DNA of 20,446 nucleotides from a virus: the IMG/VR virus record IMGVR_UViG_3300032093_001042, positions 1-20,446 of that record. One strand, 5' to 3'. A program made the translations under genes and the position numbers. The stretch's first letter is position 1, and each line of letters opens with the position of its first letter. The notes beneath the pieces were generated by a model that was not told the origin of the DNA, ran no database searches, and was given only the letters and a program-made list of their open reading frames with translations. This document shows, piece by piece, positions 1-12,164 of this stretch.

Positions 1-1211
1 GTGATTGCTCCGATACCTGCATTTTGTGCAGCTTGTACCTGAAGACCTGTACTAGATACTGTACGAGCAATAGCTTCGTTGATAAGCTTCATACCGCCTA
101 TACCTGTTTGAACAATAAGCTTACGACCAGGATCTGGACCTTGGAATTCTACACGACCTGCATAGAAGTTATAAATCTCAGCTTTGAACATATCAAGATT
201 AAAGTTAATCTTGTTGTACACTCTCTTATAAGAAGAGTCAAGCTGCTTCCAAAGACCTACAGTAAGACGAATATCATCTGGACCATCCTGACGAATTCTT
301 CCTCCTTTACCCCACATTAGGTAAGTTTCGATATCACGTGCAATCTTAGAAAGGTGTGCAGCTTCTAGTTTGGTGATAAGAGCCTTGCTCAAATTACCAT
401 TAGCAATAGCACCTTTTACATAATCAGCACCCATAGTTCCAATCATTTTCTCAATAGAGTTAACAGAAGGATCTATGTTTTTGTCGAATGATCTCCAAAT
501 TTCTACTACAGGGATAGTACCTTTTGCAGTCATACCACCTTTTGCCATAAGTTCTGCACGGCTAGAGATAGAATATTCTACGTTAGCTTCTGCACCACCT
601 ACGAAGTTGTAGTATTCACGGAAACCAGTTCTTACTTGGATATCCGCAAATCTCTCACCATATTCTCCACGAGCAGATGCCACACGGAAAAGTTTAGTTT
701 GAGGTGCTAAGTATTTGTTATCCAAATATTTGAAGCTATCATTGTTCACAAGCTGAACGGTATACACGAAACCGTCACCAAGTGTTACAACATCTACATC
801 AGGAACAATGTACATTTCAGCTCCGTTATACTTGTCAAAAGTGATAATGTCGGTGTGACCGAATTCTCTCTTGTTAACTTTGATACGGAATGTTGTACCA
901 TCGATACCTTTTGTCAGATTTCCTGGCTCGATATCTTCAATAATGTAAGGAAGATCGATAGAAATAGGCAATTGCCATTTCCACTCTCCACGTACGTTGT
1001 CAACCATAATGGTATTCTTACCATTAAAGCTAGACATTTGATACAAAGGCATTTCCACTTTTTGTGTCATTGCCCAGATGTCAACCGGACCCATATCCAT
1101 AGGTTCGGCATCCTTCAGTAGATTCTTAAGGTGGTACGAATCCAGGTGCGAACCTGCAGTGTACTCGTTATCCCTCATGAATATACCATTGTTTAGAACA
1201 GGTGTGCTCAT
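1..1211 (-). CDS. Major capsid protein, C-terminus cut by window edge
   Basis: The reading frame starts at the ATG at 1209-1211 and stays open to base 1, giving 403 codons and no stop. The protein begins MSTPVLNNGIFMRDNEY and is a mixed, globular, non-membrane protein without low-complexity tracts. Segments such as VEYSISSRAELMAKGG and ETYLMWGKGGRIRQDG look like capsid shell rather than fibre sequence. Its place directly downstream of terminase, portal and a scaffold-like gene is the classic position of the HK97-fold major capsid protein, and crAss-like capsid proteins run to about 490 aa, so perhaps 80-100 residues are missing. Codon choice is visibly different from its neighbours: many TTC, TAC, AAC, ATC, GGT and CGT codons, as expected for the most abundant virion protein. 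The assignment rests on context and general character, not on an alignment. Confidence 0.72.
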   Translation of the reverse strand, partial: MSTPVLNNGIFMRDNEYTAGSHLDSYHLKNLLKDAEPMDMGPVDIWAMTQKVEMPLYQMSSFNGKNTIMVDNVRGEWKWQLPISIDLPYIIEDIEPGNLTKGIDGTTFRIKVNKREFGHTDIITFDKYNGAEMYIVPDVDVVTLGDGFVYTVQLVNNDSFKYLDNKYLAPQTKLFRVASARGEYGERFADIQVRTGFREYYNFVGGAEANVEYSISSRAELMAKGGMTAKGTIPVVEIWRSFDKNIDPSVNSIEKMIGTMGADYVKGAIANGNLSKALITKLEAAHLSKIARDIETYLMWGKGGRIRQDGPDDIRLTVGLWKQLDSSYKRVYNKINFNLDMFKAEIYNFYAGRVEFQGPDPGRKLIVQTGIGGMKLINEAIARTVSSTGLQVQAAQNAGIGAI

Positions 1212-1240: not shown

Positions 1241-2488
1241 TTAATACCGTTTAAAAAAGTTATTCCTCTGTAACTTCGGCTGTTGTCTTCCTCTTCCTTT
1301 TTCTTGCTCTTCTTCACGGACACTAGTCGTAGTCTTATTTGCTTGTTCAGTCTTTAACATTCTTACGGTTTTTTCTGCTTGGGTATTACTTCCTATCTGT
1401 CTTACTTTTGCTTTATAACCATCAGGATCAGCAAGTAACCAAAGTGCTTCTGCTATCAAATCGTGACGTGGCTCTACGTATTGGTACTTTTCTATAAGGT
1501 GTCCAAACAAGTTTGTAGGACGACCACTTACAGATGGGTAGTTATTTTCTAAAAGACCAGACCATAAAAAGTTCTGTGTTTTACGATCTAGCTTTACCCC
1601 ACTAAGCTCACCTCTATCTAAAGTGCTAGCTAATGTATCCATATAGTTTCTAGCAGCTTCGTCACGTTGCCTTTTAATAGCTTCTTGTTGTTGCAGCTTC
1701 TGTGCTATAATCTGATCTTGCATTTGGTCCAACTTCGGTTTGAACTTTTTAGCTTTGTTTTCTAAATCACCTCTGTCTTTCCAAGCATTGATTTCTTCTT
1801 CGATATCTTCATCATCTCCAAAGTTTGTAGCACGAAGGTACTCACGGCAAGCAATTTCCTGACCTCTTTCGTCATCGATAGGTATTTGCTTTACCTCTTC
1901 AGTATGTGCAAGAACTTTAAATAAATGCTTTAAATCTGTACCACCATCTGCTAGGTATTTACCTGCAACTTGAAGTTCTTCTGGTAAAGAAGTCCAAAAG
2001 TCTTTAGATACTGTACCTAAAGCTTGTTCTTCTTTTGCTTTTAAATTAGCATCTAAAAGTTCTTCTATATCTTGTACAGAATAATTTTCTAAAGGAGTAT
2101 CATCATCAAATCCTACAATCTTACCATCGTCCATCATCTTTCTAAGGACGTTGATCATTGTACCCTTATTCATCTTCTGTTTCTCATCTTCATGTTTTAC
2201 AGAAGTTGTAGGGTTAAGGATTTTATCGGCCTCCTCTTTTGTTGTTTCAATATTTGAAGGAACGTCTTCTTCTTCTGTTTCTTCTTTTTTGCTTTCAGGT
2301 TTTGATATTGAATCTAAAACCTTAGCTACTGGGTCTGCAGTTGAAAAGAAGTTTTCTTTCTTTTCTTCTCCTGTTCCATCGTCAGATGTCATTATACTAT
2401 CTGTCGATACCCCTGGAACTCCTAGAATCTCATCTATCGTTTTAGAATCTAATTCTACGGTTGTGTTGGTTGTTGTTTCTTTTGCCAT
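1241..2488 (-). CDS. Scaffold-like / capsid assembly protein candidate (415 aa)
   Basis: The protein has a long, disordered, very acidic N-terminal half (about residues 1-110, rich in E, D, T, S and K), then helical segments including a Q/E/R-rich coiled coil near 240-290 (DQMQDQIIAQKLQQQEAIKR). It ends in a basic tail, NNFFKRY. No enzyme motif or membrane segment is visible. Its position between the portal and capsid genes, together with acidic helical character, is typical of phage scaffolding or head-assembly proteins; a basic C-terminal tip that binds the coat protein is also common in scaffolds. It could instead be an internal virion protein. It follows a 109-base gap with promoter-like signals and precedes the capsid gene by 29 bases. 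Confidence 0.5.
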   Translation of the reverse strand: MAKETTTNTTVELDSKTIDEILGVPGVSTDSIMTSDDGTGEEKKENFFSTADPVAKVLDSISKPESKKEETEEEDVPSNIETTKEEADKILNPTTSVKHEDEKQKMNKGTMINVLRKMMDDGKIVGFDDDTPLENYSVQDIEELLDANLKAKEEQALGTVSKDFWTSLPEELQVAGKYLADGGTDLKHLFKVLAHTEEVKQIPIDDERGQEIACREYLRATNFGDDEDIEEEINAWKDRGDLENKAKKFKPKLDQMQDQIIAQKLQQQEAIKRQRDEAARNYMDTLASTLDRGELSGVKLDRKTQNFLWSGLLENNYPSVSGRPTNLFGHLIEKYQYVEPRHDLIAEALWLLADPDGYKAKVRQIGSNTQAEKTVRMLKTEQANKTTTSVREEEQEKGRGRQQPKLQRNNFFKRY

Positions 2489-2597
2489 ATTTTGTTAAGT
2501 GTTGGTTGACTTACAATTACGAGTTCAAATATAAAATATAAACTTTTAAAGTTTACAGGTTGTTAAAGTTCTTTACAAAGTTTTTGACATATTATAA
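2489..2597 (-). promoter_or_regulatory. Candidate internal promoter/operator upstream of scaffold and capsid genes
   Basis: This gap holds no gene. On the minus strand there is TATATTTG (2526-2533), an exact match to the Bacteroidota -7 consensus TAnnTTTG, 38 bases before the ATG. Just upstream lies a perfect inverted repeat, AAACTTT-T-AAAGTTT as written on the plus strand (2540-2554). Extended to 2556, the 17-base element AAACTTTTAAAGTTTAC matches the gap at 10801-10817 at 16 of 17 positions. Two further AACTTT copies sit upstream. No clear TTG -33 box is at the right distance, so a repressor or phage activator site, or a phage-specific promoter, is possible. The setting would let the head genes be transcribed more than the upstream block. 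Confidence 0.5.
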
Positions 2598-5393
2598 CTA
2601 ACCTTTTTTCTTTTTCTCTTGCTTTTTCTGATTTTGAGATTTTGCAAGGTTTTCTACATCGTATTTATTTTTGTTTTCCTGTGCTATTTGTAGGTCCATA
2701 TTCTTCATCTGCAATTGAGTATTTAATTTTTCTCTTTCCATCATTTGCATTTCTCTCTCGTTAGTCTGTCTATTGGTTTCTTTTTCTCTTTGTAAGCTCA
2801 TTGTGTCTTGAAACTCTTCACTGTTTCTAATACGTTCCATCTCATCTAAGTAATCACTCTGCATGTTTTTATTAATATCAACCATAGCACCCATACCTGC
2901 AGCACGTATCTCAGCTATTAGAATATCTTTTCTTCTATTCTTTTCATTCTCCATAGCTTGATGATCCATTTGTAATTTCCTGTCTTTTTCAGCAGCTTCT
3001 ATTCTCATTTGTTCTAACTGCTGTTGTTGTTGCTGTTCTTGTTGCTTTTGTTGCATAGCTTTTTTCTCCATGTCTTTCATTACATGGTCTATCTCAGCTA
3101 AAGACTTAGACTGCATGATGTTACCTAAATCATAAAGACTAGCACCAGTAGTATTATTGTTTACTGCTAATTGTTTAAGTTGTTCTACTAAAGATCTATA
3201 ATCAGCTTTTGTAGTACAATATACATTGATATCTGACAACAACAGTTGTGTACCGTTTATCTCAAAATTTACTTTCTCATCTAACGTAGTCATATACTGC
3301 AAACGTAATGATGGATTAGTAGAATGATAATATTGAGCAAGGTCTGTTCTCATCTGATGTACTCTAGGCATTAGGTAATCTGAGTGTTGTATAAAGTACA
3401 TTTCTGTCTGAGCATAAGAAGCTGAGATAGCCTGCTCTACTCCTGTAGCTGTTTGTGTTTGACCTATCTGCTGACCTAATCTTTGTGGAGTAATACCTAT
3501 TACCTCATAAGCTTGTTGTTTAAAATAATTAGCAAGCTGAATTCTAGACATTAACCTTTGTGTCTGCTCTAACGGAAGCACCTGAAAATGATTAAAGTTT
3601 ACACCATTTTCTGTATTCGTAAGAGATGTATCTACAGGAAGAATGCTAAAGTCTTTCATAGCTGTGTAGGCCTTAGCATAATTGTTCTTGCCCCAATCTT
3701 CTCCTAATGAGTGTTTAGGTAATACGTTCTGATCTAATAGAATAACTGTACCTAGTTCATCCACCAATATATCTGCAATTTGGTTATTAACCATGTTGTA
3801 GGATACTTGGAAAGGTTTCATCAAGTCTACTAAGGACATAGACTTAGTATTTCTATCAGAGAATATTGCACCTTCCACAGGCAACTTACAACCATACAAG
3901 GTTTTATCTCCTTTAAATTGAAACTTTAAAGGCCCTGGCTTATTTTGATTAATACCTATGTACATTGGATTTACCCCACCCGGATTACTCATACCTAACA
4001 TAGAAGGTCTATTAGGACCTATCTTTGTAACACCCCAAGTTTCGTTAATCCATATCCAGTCAATATGTTCACCAAATACTAGATTATCTCTAGTCTTGTT
4101 TTTAAATACTGCGGTGTTATATACAGGCTTGTCGTGAACAACATACTCTTCACTGACAATATCTATAATAACATTACCTACTTCGTCTATTTTTGTAAGG
4201 TGACCAACCTTTCTTTGTGATTTCCAATAAGATGTTGTAACACGTATTAGAGAAGCCATTGACCAATCAAAGGTACTTTCACTCTGACTAACTACAGCTT
4301 CTACTACATCAGGACCATATAATCCTCCCTCCCAAGTAGACATAAACTGTCTCCATTCTAATGAAGGCCTGTTAACATTCCAATCATGAGATTTGGTAGC
4401 ATCGTAAAAAGACCCATCATTCTGATAACCTGCAACTGGGTATATGGCAGACTTAACAGGATAGATAGCTTCTATAGCCTTTTGCTGCTCTTCGGTAAGA
4501 AGCCATCCATACTTATCAATAACATCAGAGATAGTCATCAAGTCTATCTTTCCTACCCAAGCACCATCAGAAACATATCTAACTTCTGGTGACTTATAGT
4601 AAAACACTAATGCAGGATTCCACAGCTCAACATCATAATCATCCTCTAACATCTTAAAATGCCAAAACTCTCTATCCGTAATAAGCATATCACGGAAACC
4701 TCTTTCTTCTAACTCATCTATTCTAAACCTTTCAGCATCTACTTTATATTGGTGAGATGCCCATTGTTCACCCATACTTCTATAATTCTTGCTAAAGAAT
4801 TTTTCTATTTCTGGTAAACCCTTAATCTTATCTTCTGATAATTCCTGTTGAACTTGCTCTTGCATTTCAGGATCCTCAGGATCAATACCTTGTTCTATTA
4901 ATTTCATCATCAGCTTTTGTTGTGCTCTTTGTATAAGAACACTTTCAACTTGCTGACGTTTCTCTTCTAACATAGTGTTATAAGATTCATCATCAACACT
5001 TTGGAAACTAACGGATGTGTTTCTTTTAGCAAATTCTGCACACATTACATTGATTACATTTGGTATAATCGGATAGAATTTGAGCTCTAATGCTGCTATA
5101 TTTTCTACCTGTAAGGTGTCTATAACTTCCCTATAATCATTATCTGAATCAGGAATATAGTCTGTTCTATCTATAATACCTTTAGCTAACTTATAGTTCT
5201 TAAGTATCTTTCTAGCATTTCTAGATATTTGACGAATACCATTCCATTCTAACCAATCAGCTACCCATGCCACCCACTTGTCATCCTTTTCTTTTCTAGG
5301 TAAAAACTGAATAGGTTGTGTTAATGTCGTATTGATTCCTCCAAGTTCTGCTTTGGCACCACCCTTTAGATCTAAGGCATTAAGAATTTTCAT
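2598..5393 (-). CDS. Portal protein (931 aa)
   Basis: The portal is the dodecameric ring at the capsid vertex through which DNA is packaged and ejected. The call is based on the position directly after terminase (2-base gap), the length, and a mixed alpha/beta body of about 740 residues followed by a long helical tail. Within the body, a stretch such as LFQ-free PFQVSYNMVNNQIADILVD and the segment around GITPQRLGQQIGQTQTATG (near residues 650-670) resemble portal stem and helical regions. From about residue 750 to the end the protein is rich in Q, E, K, R and M (runs such as KQQEQQQQQQLEQM), predicting a long coiled coil like the barrel extension of P22-type portals, and ends in KKQEKKKKG. 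At 931 aa it is longer than most portals but in keeping with crAss-like ones. The stop is TAG, with TAA two codons later. Confidence 0.8.
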   Translation of the reverse strand: MKILNALDLKGGAKAELGGINTTLTQPIQFLPRKEKDDKWVAWVADWLEWNGIRQISRNARKILKNYKLAKGIIDRTDYIPDSDNDYREVIDTLQVENIAALELKFYPIIPNVINVMCAEFAKRNTSVSFQSVDDESYNTMLEEKRQQVESVLIQRAQQKLMMKLIEQGIDPEDPEMQEQVQQELSEDKIKGLPEIEKFFSKNYRSMGEQWASHQYKVDAERFRIDELEERGFRDMLITDREFWHFKMLEDDYDVELWNPALVFYYKSPEVRYVSDGAWVGKIDLMTISDVIDKYGWLLTEEQQKAIEAIYPVKSAIYPVAGYQNDGSFYDATKSHDWNVNRPSLEWRQFMSTWEGGLYGPDVVEAVVSQSESTFDWSMASLIRVTTSYWKSQRKVGHLTKIDEVGNVIIDIVSEEYVVHDKPVYNTAVFKNKTRDNLVFGEHIDWIWINETWGVTKIGPNRPSMLGMSNPGGVNPMYIGINQNKPGPLKFQFKGDKTLYGCKLPVEGAIFSDRNTKSMSLVDLMKPFQVSYNMVNNQIADILVDELGTVILLDQNVLPKHSLGEDWGKNNYAKAYTAMKDFSILPVDTSLTNTENGVNFNHFQVLPLEQTQRLMSRIQLANYFKQQAYEVIGITPQRLGQQIGQTQTATGVEQAISASYAQTEMYFIQHSDYLMPRVHQMRTDLAQYYHSTNPSLRLQYMTTLDEKVNFEINGTQLLLSDINVYCTTKADYRSLVEQLKQLAVNNNTTGASLYDLGNIMQSKSLAEIDHVMKDMEKKAMQQKQQEQQQQQQLEQMRIEAAEKDRKLQMDHQAMENEKNRRKDILIAEIRAAGMGAMVDINKNMQSDYLDEMERIRNSEEFQDTMSLQREKETNRQTNEREMQMMEREKLNTQLQMKNMDLQIAQENKNKYDVENLAKSQNQKKQEKKKKG

Positions 5394-7593: not shown

Positions 7594-8108
7594 AGATCGT
7601 AGGCCTTGTCTTTACCAGCCCATGTTACAACCTTATTCTCTTCATCAAAGTCTGATTTTATCTTTTTAAAAGAATCTCTAATACTACCATAGTTTTTAGC
7701 AGCATTAATAATTTGGGTAAGATTTCCGTCCTTTCCATCAGAGATTTCAGCTTCATCAAAATAATCACTAATCTTATCTAAAGCATTAGACAAAGAATGA
7801 TACATTCTAGAGATAGGTGTAGAATACATTTTAGCACATTTATCAATGGCTGTTATAATATCTGCATCATCTAAAGAAAAGTCTATACCTAAATCTAAAG
7901 CTATTAACTCCGACTTTTCTGAAGCAGGAATATTGCTATATGGATTTTCGTGTCTAGGATATGACATATAAAAAACATAGGATATAACCTTTATAGCATT
8001 ATCCTGATATTTGTCTACTAAACATTTTAAAAATTGTAAGTTATGACAATGGATTGTAAGTGATATCTTACCATCTTCATAATCTATTAGTTTTACAGCA
8101 TCAATCAT
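7590..8108 (-). CDS. Unknown protein upstream of terminase (172 aa)
   Basis: I do not recognise a named family. The protein is soluble and acidic. The first 50 residues look like a beta-rich segment, then comes FYMSYPRHENPYSNIPASEK (about 47-66), a motif style I associate with conserved phage proteins next to packaging genes, then mostly helices to the end. It overlaps the 130 aa gene upstream by 8 bases and its stop overlaps the terminase start, so it is made together with TerL. The location and size make it a candidate for a packaging accessory or small-terminase role, but no helix-turn-helix is evident, so this is only inference. Confidence 0.75.
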   Translation of the reverse strand: MIDAVKLIDYEDGKISLTIHCHNLQFLKCLVDKYQDNAIKVISYVFYMSYPRHENPYSNIPASEKSELIALDLGIDFSLDDADIITAIDKCAKMYSTPISRMYHSLSNALDKISDYFDEAEISDGKDGNLTQIINAAKNYGSIRDSFKKIKSDFDEENKVVTWAGKDKAYDL

Positions 8109-8493
8109 GTTTTAATATTTCTTTTAGTTGAACAATTACATCTTTAGAATCGTGACCATTCCATAAACTTTTGGGAACAGTACTAGCAAATTTACAGAAA
8201 CTCCATAGAGACATTGGTAAATGATATGTTATCTGCATAAGCTTTTTCTCACTAGGAGGCATGTAGTCAATCCCTAGTACAAACCAACGATTAGTATTTT
8301 TACCATACTTATCCCTCACAGATTTCCATACGTATGCATTATTTTCAGAGAACAATCTAGCTACTGTTATAAATAACAAGTTCCTATGTTCATATAGTTC
8401 TGAGAATGTGTGATAACCATCTGAAATTTCAGCAATAGATATCTTCTTTGACTTATGTAGTTCTTTTAAAAACTTACTTAGTTCCTTTTCCAT
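8101..8493 (-). CDS. Conserved phage protein with YHTFSELYEHR motif (130 aa)
   Basis: The central pattern SDGYHTFSELYEHRNLLF (residues 23-40), then W-K-S (about 55), WFVLGI, QITYHLPMSLW (about 88-98) and LWNGHDSKDV (about 110-119) matches, from memory, a widespread small phage protein whose members carry SDGYHTF.ELY.HR, QITYHLP and W.GHTS.DV. Its function is not known to me. Several His, Trp and Asp residues are conserved in the pattern, so an enzymatic or metal-binding role is possible. The gene overlaps the 36 aa gene upstream by 20 bases and the 172 aa gene downstream by 8. Confidence 0.82.
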   Translation of the reverse strand: MEKELSKFLKELHKSKKISIAEISDGYHTFSELYEHRNLLFITVARLFSENNAYVWKSVRDKYGKNTNRWFVLGIDYMPPSEKKLMQITYHLPMSLWSFCKFASTVPKSLWNGHDSKDVIVQLKEILKHD

Positions 8494-9403: not shown

Positions 9404-9733
9404 TTAATCGTGAGGGTTTAGACCTATCTTATTATTTATTTCTACTTCTTCTTCATCTGTTACAAATCTATCCCAACGTTTATACTCAGGATCGGGACAG
9501 TATTCTGAAAGACTTCTTAGCTTCCAAGCTAACTTACAACCACAAAGTCCACAACAAGGTTGTGTTCCTGGTACTACACATTTATCATCCGTCATACTAA
9601 GATGAGGACACTCCATGCATTTTACCAATCTTTCAGCTGCTATTTCCTCAACATCTTCTTTTTTAAAGATATTGTTTTTAATACCTTCCAGTATACTTTT
9701 TCTGTTTTTCCAAATTCGGTGTATATTTCCCAT
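9404..9733 (-). CDS. Cysteine-rich, probably zinc-binding protein (109 aa)
   Basis: The central region (about residues 37-80) contains KCMECPH, then DKCVV, then QPCCGLCGCKLAWKLRS and finally EYCPD, giving eight cysteines spaced in CxxC-type pairs as expected for a zinc ribbon or similar fold, followed by a KRW segment. I recall this Cys pattern with CGC.L..K.RS....CP from conserved small proteins of Bacteroidota phages, but I know no function for them. The N-terminus is basic and helical. The start lies within the HU-like gene, overlapping it by 56 bases; a closer internal start is not evident because the only other Met is at the first cysteine pair. A DNA- or protein-binding accessory role is likely. 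Confidence 0.78.
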   Translation of the reverse strand: MGNIHRIWKNRKSILEGIKNNIFKKEDVEEIAAERLVKCMECPHLSMTDDKCVVPGTQPCCGLCGCKLAWKLRSLSEYCPDPEYKRWDRFVTDEEEVEINNKIGLNPHD

Positions 9734-10088
9734 AACGTTTTTCCATTACTTTAATAAATTTTTCTTTATCTTGTTTATAGGTTTCTATCGCATGCTTTAA
9801 GTTATTTACAGTGTCTTCTATACGTTGTTTACGTTTAAACATTCCAATGGTATTTACCGGGTAGGTTTGTAAAATATTTTCATATTTTTCTTTTAGTGTT
9901 TCAGCCCTAGTATTTATCATAATCATTGTTCCTAGACCTTTTATTTCTAGGCAGTAATGTTTAGTATTAACAATATGCTCACGTACTTTTTTCCAATAAA
10001 ATTTCATAAAGTCTTTAAGGAAAGTTTTATCAAGGCCTGTTTGCTCGTGTAACTTATCCAATACTACATCCCATCTATCTGGCCTCAA
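9678..10088 (-). CDS. HU/IHF-like DNA-bending protein, TTG start (136 aa)
   Basis: Residues 8-40 (VVLDKLHEQTGLDKTFLKDF and onward) form the two-helix N-terminal dimer part of the HU/IHF fold, and CLEIKGLGTMIMINTRAETL (46-65) matches the hallmark beta segment of HU (compare the GFGTF...RAER pattern). A helical C-terminal extension of about 65 residues replaces the usual short end. HU-like proteins encoded in the structural region are a known feature of crAss-like phages, where they are proposed to condense or package DNA. The start must be TTG at 10086-10088, since the next ATG would remove the first helix; the start overlaps the winged-helix gene by 14 bases. Non-ATG initiation here could hold expression low. 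Confidence 0.72.
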   Translation of the reverse strand: MRPDRWDVVLDKLHEQTGLDKTFLKDFMKFYWKKVREHIVNTKHYCLEIKGLGTMIMINTRAETLKEKYENILQTYPVNTIGMFKRKQRIEDTVNNLKHAIETYKQDKEKFIKVMEKRYGKYTPNLEKQKKYTGRY

Positions 10089-10440
10089 CGTGAATAACTT
10101 TATAGTTCAACAATATGTTACCTTTTGTTTTAATACCCAATTCAGGATTTAAAAACACTACTTTCTTCCAGTCACCCTTTTTACATATAAGGTTATATTC
10201 CTTAGCTTTCTTTAAGCTGTTTCTTACAGTCTGAGGTGTTTTAAAGATTTCATATTTTATAGTTAAATCAAAGAACTCTGCTTGATCAAATTCATCTTTT
10301 GTTCCTAACAAAGTCAAACATTCTAAATCTGAATCGGTAATAGATATCTCGTGCACATAACAATAAGTCATGAGTTGGAAACGGATTATTTCATAAATAT
10401 CCATTTCAATCTTCTTATCGACCAAATCAAAAGCAGCCAT
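10075..10440 (-). CDS. Winged-helix DNA-binding protein candidate (121 aa)
   Basis: The region FKTPQTVRNSLKKAKEYNLICKKG (about residues 70-93) reads like a recognition helix followed by a hairpin wing, and VVFLNPELGIKTKGNILLNY (about 98-115) completes a winged-helix-style domain. The N-terminal third is helical. I recall the pattern of R-N-x-L-x-x-A...G-L-I...K-K, then LNP, then G-N-I-L-L-x-Y-K, from uncharacterised Bacteroidota phage proteins. Roles could be late-gene regulation or DNA recognition for packaging (a small-terminase-like job). It precedes the HU-like gene, overlapping its TTG start, and follows the 104 aa gene by 8 bases. The stop is TAG. Confidence 0.68.
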   Translation of the reverse strand: MAAFDLVDKKIEMDIYEIIRFQLMTYCYVHEISITDSDLECLTLLGTKDEFDQAEFFDLTIKYEIFKTPQTVRNSLKKAKEYNLICKKGDWKKVVFLNPELGIKTKGNILLNYKVIHVEAR

Positions 10441-10448
10441 TGTAAAGA

Positions 10449-10763
10449 CTATTTAGAAGATTTAAGCTTTCTAAAGTTTTTAGAATGATCTTTCTTTGTT
10501 TCGGTTTTTTCTATTTCTTGTTCGGGTACACCAGGAATCTGATCACCTTGTTCCTGTTCATACATCATTTGTGTAAATGCTTGCTGAATACGTACTCTCT
10601 TAAAAGTAAGTTCATCAATATCAGCAAGTAGTCCTAGATACTTCTTTTTCTTCTCTAGAAATTCAGATTGTTTGTCATAGAAATCACCAAGTTCTTTTTG
10701 CTGTTGAGCAATCTCTTCTGGTGATAATTCTCTCTCTTCGTTTTGTTGGTTTAGGTTTTCCAT
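10449..10763 (-). CDS. Small coiled-coil protein (104 aa)
   Basis: The protein is acidic and strongly helical from about residue 14 to 72 (EEIAQQQKELGDFYDKQ, then EKKKKYLGLLADID), with a heptad-like pattern, followed by a disordered, Lys-rich C-terminal tail ending LKSSK. There is no known family. It is the first gene after the second candidate promoter element, so it probably opens a transcript covering the packaging genes. Small helical proteins with basic tails in this place can be small terminase subunits or minor head proteins; the sequence does not decide. Confidence 0.72.
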   Translation of the reverse strand: MENLNQQNEERELSPEEIAQQQKELGDFYDKQSEFLEKKKKYLGLLADIDELTFKRVRIQQAFTQMMYEQEQGDQIPGVPEQEIEKTETKKDHSKNFRKLKSSK

Positions 10764-10832
10764 AGTTTTAAACTTTTTACAAATGTAATATAAAAAGTTT
10801 AAACTTTTATAGTTTACTAAACTTTTTCGACA
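10764..10832 (-). promoter_or_regulatory. Candidate promoter/operator before the packaging genes
   Basis: On the minus strand TACATTTG (10780-10787) matches the Bacteroidota -7 box TAnnTTTG, 17 bases before the ATG. Upstream is a perfect 16-base palindrome AAAAGTTTAAACTTTT (10793-10808), and the element AAACTTTTATAGTTTAC (plus strand, 10801-10817) matches that at 2540-2556 at 16 of 17 bases. The ends of the two gaps next to the upstream gene are also alike (minus-strand ATGTCGAAAAAGTTTAGTAAA here, ATGTCAAAAACTTTGTAAA there). No coding frame longer than 8 codons is present. This is either a host-type promoter with an overlapping operator or a phage promoter. Confidence 0.5.
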
Positions 10833-12164
10833 TTACCTACTTACTTCTTCCCAGTCTATTGAGGCATACATTCCTAAAGTTCCTCCTATAGTATCTATAG
10901 CTGCTTCTACTATTAGTTCAAAAGCTACACCGGTTAGACCGTCTCTTTCTAGCTGATTAGCAAACAGTGCTTCCTTTAGTATGTTTATACTAGGTGAGGC
11001 TTGATTAGAAGAATTTATATAACCTAGAGCAAGCACTCTACCACCTGTTGCAGATGTTCCTGTAAGATTATACTCTACTGCAGAATCGGGTCCTACAGGT
11101 ACCCATGCTCCACCAGTTATAGTACCACCTTGTACTACTCTCCAAGCATAGTTCTTACCGTTACCTAATCCTAATATAGATATAGCGGTTGCTATTACTA
11201 TAGCATCTAGCTTTGTTGCTGTAAGTTTTAGTCCTACCATAGGATAAAAAGTACCTGCTGCAGCAAAGCTTGTTGGTGTAGTAATAGGAGTACCAACAGC
11301 TTGTTGTGCTCCTCTTAGTTCATAACCACCCTCAGATATTACAGTAGAACATACTTGTTTTAAAGTACTTGGTGCCGCGGTGTTTCCTTCATTAGTAATC
11401 TCATATCTTAGTGGTAGAGAAGCTGTGGTTATATAGGTAGTACTAATAATATTAGCATGGTTAAACCTGTGACATAGTACAAATATTCCATCTATTACAA
11501 AGCCTACCCTTACAGTTCCCTCACCTAACCACTCAATATCAGTAAACATGATCTGAGCCTTGGTTATATCTAGAGTAATACCCGAAGGTCCTGTACCATC
11601 TAGCTTATCTACATTCCATAAGTTCTGAGGTACTATTGTTTCAGTAACAAGGCCTGTGACTAAGCTTCTTTCTACAAAACTTACAGTACTATCTTTTAAC
11701 TGTATATAGATACCATTATCTACACCAAAATAACCTACTCTTTGTCTGAGGTTAGTCTGTGCCGGTGCCATCACAAAAGTATTGAATACTAGTAATGACT
11801 TACCTGGTTGGTAAGAGAATACTTTATAAGTTTCTCTTATTACTTCTGAACCTGTTGCTGCTGTTACATTAAGGTTTACTAGTCCTTGATCAGGACTAAA
11901 AACTGCGGTGCCACCACTAGCAGTAGCTGTAGCCCATAGTCCATTATCTTTATATCTATGTGAAGAATCAAAAAGAGTTAATGGTTCTGATACTCTTAAT
12001 CTACCAAAGGCATCGTTAGCCATAGGTCCTACAACTTCACTGCCTATAGTAGTAGTTAAAGTATCAATACTAGTATTAATAAGGTCTAAACCTTTTAACA
12101 TCCGGTATTGCCAAGGGTAATTATAACCCTTGCTACCATTATCTTTTAGATTACCTATTGACAT
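10833..12164 (-). CDS. Virion structural protein of the DAFGRLRVS family with shared N-terminal tag (443 aa)
   Basis: Residues 1-26 (MSIGNLKDNGSKGYNYPWQY and onward) are nearly the same as the start of the 246 aa protein. From about residue 49 the sequence DAFGRLRVSEPLTLFDSSHR leads into a large beta-rich domain that continues with KSLLVFNTFVM, NLRQRVGYFGVDNGIY, DIEWLGEGTVRVGFVIDG and STVISEGGYELRG (to about 290). I recognise this block from a widespread virion protein of marine and freshwater phages, often annotated only as structural. The last 150 residues are a second beta-rich region. There are no enzyme motifs. The short N-terminal segment is probably an attachment or docking peptide, and the rest an exposed decoration, neck or fibre-associated protein. 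Confidence 0.75.
   Translation of the reverse strand: MSIGNLKDNGSKGYNYPWQYRMLKGLDLINTSIDTLTTTIGSEVVGPMANDAFGRLRVSEPLTLFDSSHRYKDNGLWATATASGGTAVFSPDQGLVNLNVTAATGSEVIRETYKVFSYQPGKSLLVFNTFVMAPAQTNLRQRVGYFGVDNGIYIQLKDSTVSFVERSLVTGLVTETIVPQNLWNVDKLDGTGPSGITLDITKAQIMFTDIEWLGEGTVRVGFVIDGIFVLCHRFNHANIISTTYITTASLPLRYEITNEGNTAAPSTLKQVCSTVISEGGYELRGAQQAVGTPITTPTSFAAAGTFYPMVGLKLTATKLDAIVIATAISILGLGNGKNYAWRVVQGGTITGGAWVPVGPDSAVEYNLTGTSATGGRVLALGYINSSNQASPSINILKEALFANQLERDGLTGVAFELIVEAAIDTIGGTLGMYASIDWEEVSR

Follow-up and report, generated by a model that had tools for sequence, protein, structure and literature searches.

Introduction

Class I activator sites of the CRP type are centred near -61.5 or -71.5. 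In the middle promoters of phage T4, the host -10-type box is kept and the -35-type box is replaced by an AT-rich phage element that serves a phage activator (PMC2988021). Sigma-A promoters of Bacteroidota combine a -33 box (TTTG/TTG) with a -7 box (TAnnTTTG), the latter lying at -12 to -5 in Flavobacterium psychrophilum (PMC9723704). The late genes of Crassvirales are thought to use host RNA polymerase (PMC10136315), and in the papers searched we came across no account of an activator or a late promoter element in crAss-like phages. Here we compare these systems with two intergenic regions, gap A and gap B, of a crAss-like virus fragment.

A crAss-like genome fragment and its relatives

The window, by which we mean the whole stretch of DNA analyzed, is a 20.4-kb fragment (20,446 nucleotides) of a virus record. 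Its late genes here all lie on the minus strand, so we read the elements described below on that strand. Judged by its crAss-type terminase (phrog_6681, E 1.3e-58) and portal protein, the window is a member of the Crassvirales. Every tblastn match of annotated phages to the window was below 60% identity, with the matches listed at 20-30%; the best portal match among the matches listed was to Leptolyngbya phage Lbo-JY46 (30%), followed by Cellulophaga phages phi17:2/phi4:1 (26%). The Epsilon crAss-like group includes phi17:2 (PMC7886860). Close relatives were many IMG/VR contigs, of which 80 were kept (portal identity 62-92%, mostly 62-66%). The genes around the two gaps are:

2598 to 5393, minus strand: portal protein (phrog_6547, E 2.7e-97), upstream of gap A
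1241 to 2488, minus strand: 415-aa ORF between the portal and the capsid-type gene, predicted target of promoter A
1 to 1211, minus strand: ORF with its ATG at 1211 that runs off the window, presumed by position to encode the major capsid protein
10449 to 10763, minus strand: 104-aa ORF, first gene behind promoter B, with 44 distinct homologs
10075 to 10440, minus strand: candidate regulator of 121 aa with a predicted winged-helix fold, encoded in the promoter-B operon
9678 to 10088, minus strand: HU/IHF-like protein, 136 aa as called, the gene after the 121-aa protein

In phi14:2 the gene order is portal, then a ~375-aa gene, then the major head protein. A homolog profile of the 136-aa protein matched crAss001 gp14, annotated as 'protein HU' (E 3e-4), and Pfam and PHROGs yielded no function for the 415-, 104-, 121-, and 136-aa proteins. 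Elsewhere in the window, a 130-aa WDGH-domain protein (8101-8493, minus strand; PF25311, E 3e-21) lies between an exonuclease and a 172-aa gene. With two matches in the ORF set of the relatives, the window's own ORF included, it is an unusual cargo gene.

A 17-bp element is conserved between the portal and downstream late genes

A first-pass annotation of this DNA had reported two copies of a palindromic 17-mer, each beside a TAnnTTTG box, and had suggested an internal late promoter with an operator for a dimeric regulator. We found the two copies, AAACTTTTAAAGTTTAC (2540-2556, plus strand) and AAACTTTTATAGTTTAC (10801-10817, plus strand), to be identical at 16 of 17 positions, and both boxes to lie downstream of them on the minus strand, at 5 bp in gap A and 12 bp in gap B. 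The elements, including a second element (U) considered further below, are:

2556 to 2539 and 10817 to 10800, minus strand: the 17-mer in its functional direction (the genes run minus), GTAAACT(T/A)TAAAAGTTTA
2539 to 2555, minus strand: copy A of the palindromic element, TAAACTTTAAAAGTTTA, with a 16-bp core at 2539-2554, spanning about -33 to -18
2526 to 2533, minus strand: -7 box of promoter A, TATATTTG (TAnnTTTG), 5 bp from copy A, with a predicted start near 2521
2588 to 2600, minus strand: U, with the sequence TAGTTATAATATG here and TAGCTATATAaTg as the consensus of the clade, which overlaps the portal stop and lies 67 bp upstream of the -7 box start-to-start
10800 to 10816, minus strand: copy B, TAAACTATAAAAGTTTA, the palindromic element of gap B, separated by 12 bp from the -7 box downstream of it
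10795 to 10806, minus strand: AAGTTTAAACTT, overlapping copy B, from the gap-B ortholog comparison
10780 to 10787, minus strand: -7 box of promoter B, TACATTTG, aligned with the TATATTTG of orthologs, with a predicted start near 10775

When the window was searched with the 17-mer, six sites with three or fewer mismatches were found compared with 0.64 expected, a count that none of 100 shuffles reached, and dinucleotide shuffles of both gaps reached a 16/17 match once in 300. Within the window alone, the repeat is therefore moderately significant rather than overwhelming; its reality is settled because it is conserved in relatives. At gap A, which separates the portal from the ~420-aa and capsid-type genes, the 16-bp core AAATTTWTMAAGTTTA is present in about 74 of 79 relatives (matrix information, 16 bits), with 62 of 70 unique gaps scoring at least 12 compared with 9 of 1400 shuffles. 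An exception on the same branch as the window, L063, instead carries a canonical TTTG-22 bp-TAGATTTG promoter. In L082, another exception, a GIY-YIG-type reading frame has been inserted right behind the portal stop and splits the portal from the late promoter gap.

The matrix was also used to scan 161 sources (2.7 Mb, ~6% of the DNA non-coding), which returned 181 sites; 154 of these (about 85%) were located between genes, and 105 were followed within 150 bp by an ATG in the same direction. Most of the latter preceded one of two gene families, the largest found downstream of the sites: the ~420-aa gene at gap A (70 sources) and a ~100-aa gene at gap B (17 sources). A third site precedes a ~1,000-aa gene adjoining giant genes in six of six larger contigs, and a fourth precedes a 1,024-1,257-aa gene in two larger contigs. 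Two distant phages, phi4:1 and Lbo-JY46 (the latter in the stretch examined), yielded no 16-mer, and AAGTTTA alone gave no strong genome-wide signal, the window and G007 excepted.

The proposed operator for a dimer held up in part. TAAACT-N5-AGTTTA in the inverted arrangement, spanning 17 bp, occurs between genes seven times in seven sources, compared with two everted and no direct occurrences, but the clade-wide 16-mer matrix is weakly palindromic, with 127 of 2000 column shuffles scoring equally well. In G007 (12012-12041, plus strand), TAAACCTATTAGGTTTA immediately precedes TAGCTATATGGTG; here a U element has as its neighbour a palindrome in which both halves are altered (TT to CC/GG type).

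The gap-A element takes the place of the host -33 box

Because TAnnTTTG lies at -12 to -5, the 16-mer of the window would span about -33 to -18, with starts near 2521 (A) and 10775 (B); the starts given in the first-pass annotation, ~2520 and ~10775, agree with the box position mapped in F. psychrophilum (PMC9723704). At gap A, the 16-mer is found 5-7 bp upstream of the Bacteroidota sigma-A -7 box, which is the expected place of the -33 box, and its spacing to TAnnTTTG is exactly 6 in 29 of 32 unique gaps (34 of 37 when all such gaps are counted). While TAnnTTTG was present in 32 unique gap-A relatives and in the 56 gap-B orthologs, as in a Bacteroidota sigma-A promoter, the -33 box was missing at gap A: within 17-23 bp upstream of the -7 box, TTTG was found in 0 of 32 gaps and TTG in 1 of 32. 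TTTG or TTG is located 20-22 bp before TAnnTTTG in the homologous gaps of phi14:2 and FpV21, which have a promoter of this type in the same place after the portal, in late gaps of crAss001, and within the clade in L063. Since these promoters keep the box that gap A lacks, we conclude that in this clade the 17-mer has replaced the -33 box of gap A, with U added.

About half of gap-A promoters carry TATATTA in place of TAnnTTTG. The spacing of the 16-mer to TATATTA (5 or 16) was considered as phasing evidence and dropped; the first box, at 5-7 bp, corresponds to what is seen at the second locus described below and was therefore taken as the core. A second TATATTA often follows TAnnTTTG by ~10 bp in gap-A relatives, frequently with TGTAGA further on, and one possible reading is that it represents tandem cores or an initial-transcript signal.

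A core lacking the 17-mer, TTTTTWGTATATTATAnTATA, was observed in late gaps of G003 (90.9k, 101.7k and 105.1k, minus strand), G004 (70.0k and 92.1k, plus strand) and G006 (86.8k and 96.9k, plus strand). Across seven sources it occurs in 25 of 267 gaps, mostly on late strands, compared with 3.3 for shuffled matrices. It may be a related core and a possible second late promoter class.

A second element, U, keeps whole-turn distances and varies together at two loci

The first-pass annotation had noted that both gaps begin with similar sequence. The similarity is real in both gaps, but in gap B it is not conserved, most orthologs carrying an intrinsic terminator there, and in gap A it marks the end of U, which is conserved in its own right. 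Neither U nor the replacement of the -33 box nor the helical phasing described here had been noted in that annotation.

In 74 of 76 sequences (14.9 bits), U occupies the left end of the gap, where it overlaps or adjoins the portal stop of gap A; the window's own copy scores 8.5, a value reached by a fraction of 0.01 of shuffles. After five sequences without a recognizable box were set aside, the distance from U to the box was 56-58 bp (39 gaps) or 66-68 bp (21 gaps) and no other value in 60 of 60 unique gaps, such that the two classes are one helical turn apart. When the U-to-16-mer spacing class was mapped on the portal tree, at least five changes were needed, each of about 10 bp.

A genome-wide scan located U a second time on the early strand, opposite to the late genes, as a rule immediately behind a terminator-like run, where it precedes a ~88-aa acidic ORF and a ~155-aa ORF; the gene is unrelated to gap A. 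This early-strand U was found in 71 of 78 IMG/VR relatives. Its distance to the box, TAnnTT[TG][AG] and commonly TAnnTTTA, was 55-58 bp in 50 of 53 unique sequences, matching the short class of gap A.

The variants of U at the two loci of a genome resemble each other. Among 20 genomes with both loci, 14 mismatches were counted between loci compared with 53 expected and a minimum of 30 in 20,000 permutations; for the 13 distinct pairs, the values were 12 and 36. The permutation test is inflated by shared ancestry, and the independent changes are few. For example, the same variant was present at both loci in G001 (TAGCTCTATTATCC) and in G004 (TAGCTATATAGTG). This covariation fits the trace expected of a trans-acting factor that differs between phages. 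In phi14:2, FpV21, crAss001, phi4:1 and Lbo-JY46, U was not found beyond chance.

Gap B combines a variant of the element with a host-type box

Orthologs of gap B were gathered through homologs of the 104-aa gene, and 56 were aligned; the 443-aa fibre-type protein failed as an ortholog finder, its domain being shuffled among genes. The orthologs keep a variant of the 17-mer before the ~100-aa gene that heads the winged-helix/HU operon, and in most of them an intrinsic terminator is followed by TTTAAATATATCTAGTTTAAACTTTTATTG-TATATTTG. A 16-mer matrix score of at least 10 was reached by 29 of 56 orthologs compared with 0.4% of shuffles, and the 16-mer stood 11-12 bp from the box in 31 of the 35 sequences scoring at least 8. 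The most conserved part of these gaps is (G)TTTAAACTT, 6-7 bp before the box, with TTTAAA 9-10 bp from the box in 54 of 56. TTTG at the -33 distance was found in 17 of 56 orthologs compared with 5.8 by chance, indicating that the -33 box is partly kept. An intrinsic terminator, TCCAGGTA..TGCCTGGATTTTTT, lies directly upstream of promoter B in L122, L136, G003, G004 and others; the window is without it.

The winged-helix protein is a candidate regulator

The 121-aa protein had been put forward as a possible regulator. AlphaFold2 predicted a winged helix with confidence (pLDDT 90.8), the closest structure being the DNA-binding domain of Fur/Zur (4mtd; Z 12.8, rmsd 2.2 over 88 residues), and a weak Foldseek match to the activation domain of T4 MotA was also obtained (1bja, E 0.043). 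In the model, residues ~13-102 match the Fur-family DNA-binding domain. Unlike Fur, the protein has no room for a C-terminal dimerization and metal-binding domain, as the match ends near residue 102 of 121, and it has no Pfam hit; moreover, a shared fold does not show function. The predicted fold makes the protein a fair candidate, but since Lbo-JY46, whose examined stretch yielded no such element, also has a recognizable homolog (hhalign E 7e-7), the protein is not an obvious specific partner of the element. We thus consider it a candidate only. The crAss001 protein gp13, annotated as a VpsT-like regulator and located in the corresponding position ahead of HU, gave no match to the winged-helix profile. 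No sigma-70 family gene was found in eight clade contigs, and among the 59 proteins of G004, Pfam named no DNA-binding regulator and its hits included neither MotA nor AsiA.

A model for activator-dependent late transcription

Comparison with relatives gives good support to the proposed internal late promoter and to conservation of the element upstream of it. We favor a model in which gap A is an activator-type late promoter that uses host RNA polymerase together with phage-encoded factors at U and the 17-mer, and we regard this as probable on the sequence comparisons. Gap A would be read leftwards by the host polymerase into the 415-aa and capsid-type genes. Host sigma-A would still recognize the -7 box, with the phage-specific, roughly palindromic 17-mer standing in for the lost -33 box and U some 63 or 73 bp before the start, on a fixed helix face. 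One or more phage-encoded proteins bound to U, in a class-I-like position, and to the 17-mer, in the -33 position, would then recruit or redirect the polymerase, so that the capsid genes would be switched on only once these binding proteins had been made. Gap B would be a host-type promoter with its own 17-mer, heading the winged-helix and HU-like operon. The sequences themselves show the elements and where they lie, as well as how these are conserved, phased and covarying; from this we infer promoter activity, use of the host polymerase, activation over repression and the protein identities.

Gap A resembles the T4 middle promoters, where MotA acts by sigma appropriation, in that it keeps the host box and has a phage element in place of the upstream box. 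However, the MotA box is single, is ~10 bp long, is separated from the -10 element by 12 +/- 1 bp and serves a protein that acts as a monomer, whereas the gap-A element is ~16-17 bp long, palindrome-like, of another consensus and 5-7 bp from the box, and gap A has a second element about 57 or 67 bp upstream. The position of U, centred near -63 or -73 in one-turn steps with none between, resembles that of a class I activator site, although unlike CRP-type sites U has no obvious palindrome. This anatomy fits activator-dependent initiation by host RNA polymerase in which features of T4 middle promoters and of class I activation would be combined.

Several observations count against the activator model. 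Between gap A, where 5-7 bp separate the 17-mer from the box, and gap B, where the separation is 11-12 bp, the element shifts by half a turn, so that a single protein cannot touch the polymerase identically at both. In addition, TTTG is above chance in gap B, TATATTA boxes occur at gap A, and the sequences are very AT-rich.

If the palindrome were a repressor operator, a dimer over -33 to -18 would block the polymerase until late, or the operon would be shut off by its own product, as in autoregulation by the winged-helix protein at gap B. The inverted 17-bp geometry, the similarity of the winged helix to Fur/Zur and MarR/BlaI-type domains, and a further TAAACTT just downstream of the box in gap-B orthologs are all consistent with repression, which would also accommodate the variable distance between element and box (5-7, 11-12, ~20 and ~25 bp) more easily. 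However, the missing -33 box would leave a repressor little basal promoter to act on at gap A, the conserved sites of both gaps place the 16-mer upstream of the box, and U and its phasing are left unexplained. We regard repression as unlikely.

An ordinary host sigma-A promoter, in which the 17-mer and U are AT-rich spacer or UP-type sequence for sigma and the alpha C-terminal domain and no phage protein takes part, would account for the host-type TAnnTTTG box, the AT-rich sequence and the distance of U, which suits alpha-CTD contacts. This reading is quite unlikely given that each element holds 15-16 bits of specific sequence and that a shared host polymerase does not predict the two-locus covariation of U unless U tracks host lineage.

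We consider it more doubtful still that gap A serves a phage-encoded RNA polymerase recognizing TATATTA and perhaps U. The main reason for keeping this reading is the excess of the TTTTTWGTATATTATAnTATA core described above; crAss-like phages also encode a virion RNA polymerase, coevolution of polymerase and promoter would fit the covariation of U, and TATATTA takes the place of the host-type box in the gap-A promoters mentioned earlier. However, TAnnTTTG is nearly invariant in the other half of gap A and in gap B, and the virion polymerase of phi14:2 serves early genes, with late genes thought to be left to host RNA polymerase (review PMC10136315). Chance similarity of AT-rich gaps, which the presence of only two copies in the window and the one shuffled gap pair in 300 might have suggested, is refuted by the conservation and rigid spacing among relatives that are mostly 62-66% identical in the portal.

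Beyond gap A, the activator model extends to the proposal that this undescribed crAss-like group has evolved a promoter class of its own, in which a phage activator with a coevolving site, U, acts from whole-turn distances on the capsid promoter as well as on an early-strand one, and a second phage factor replaces the -33 box, retargeting the Bacteroidota polymerase. We hold this wider proposal tentatively, at slightly under even confidence. For the question of how crAss-like phages time their late genes, the analysis supplies two defined DNA elements, each exactly positioned, and two promoters as their targets. A protein that binds U, if found, would to our knowledge have no precedent in the crAss-like group as a candidate for a late or middle activator. 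As the clade swapped the host -33 box for a phage element and related phages keep it, they also provide a natural comparison for the takeover of an unusual sigma factor.

A minor observation concerns the host of Lbo-JY46 (L164). A cyanobacterial host is on record for this phage, yet the late gaps around its portal carry Bacteroidota-type boxes (TAACTTTG and TAATTTTG); the true host of this crAss-like phage may be a Bacteroidota companion in the culture.
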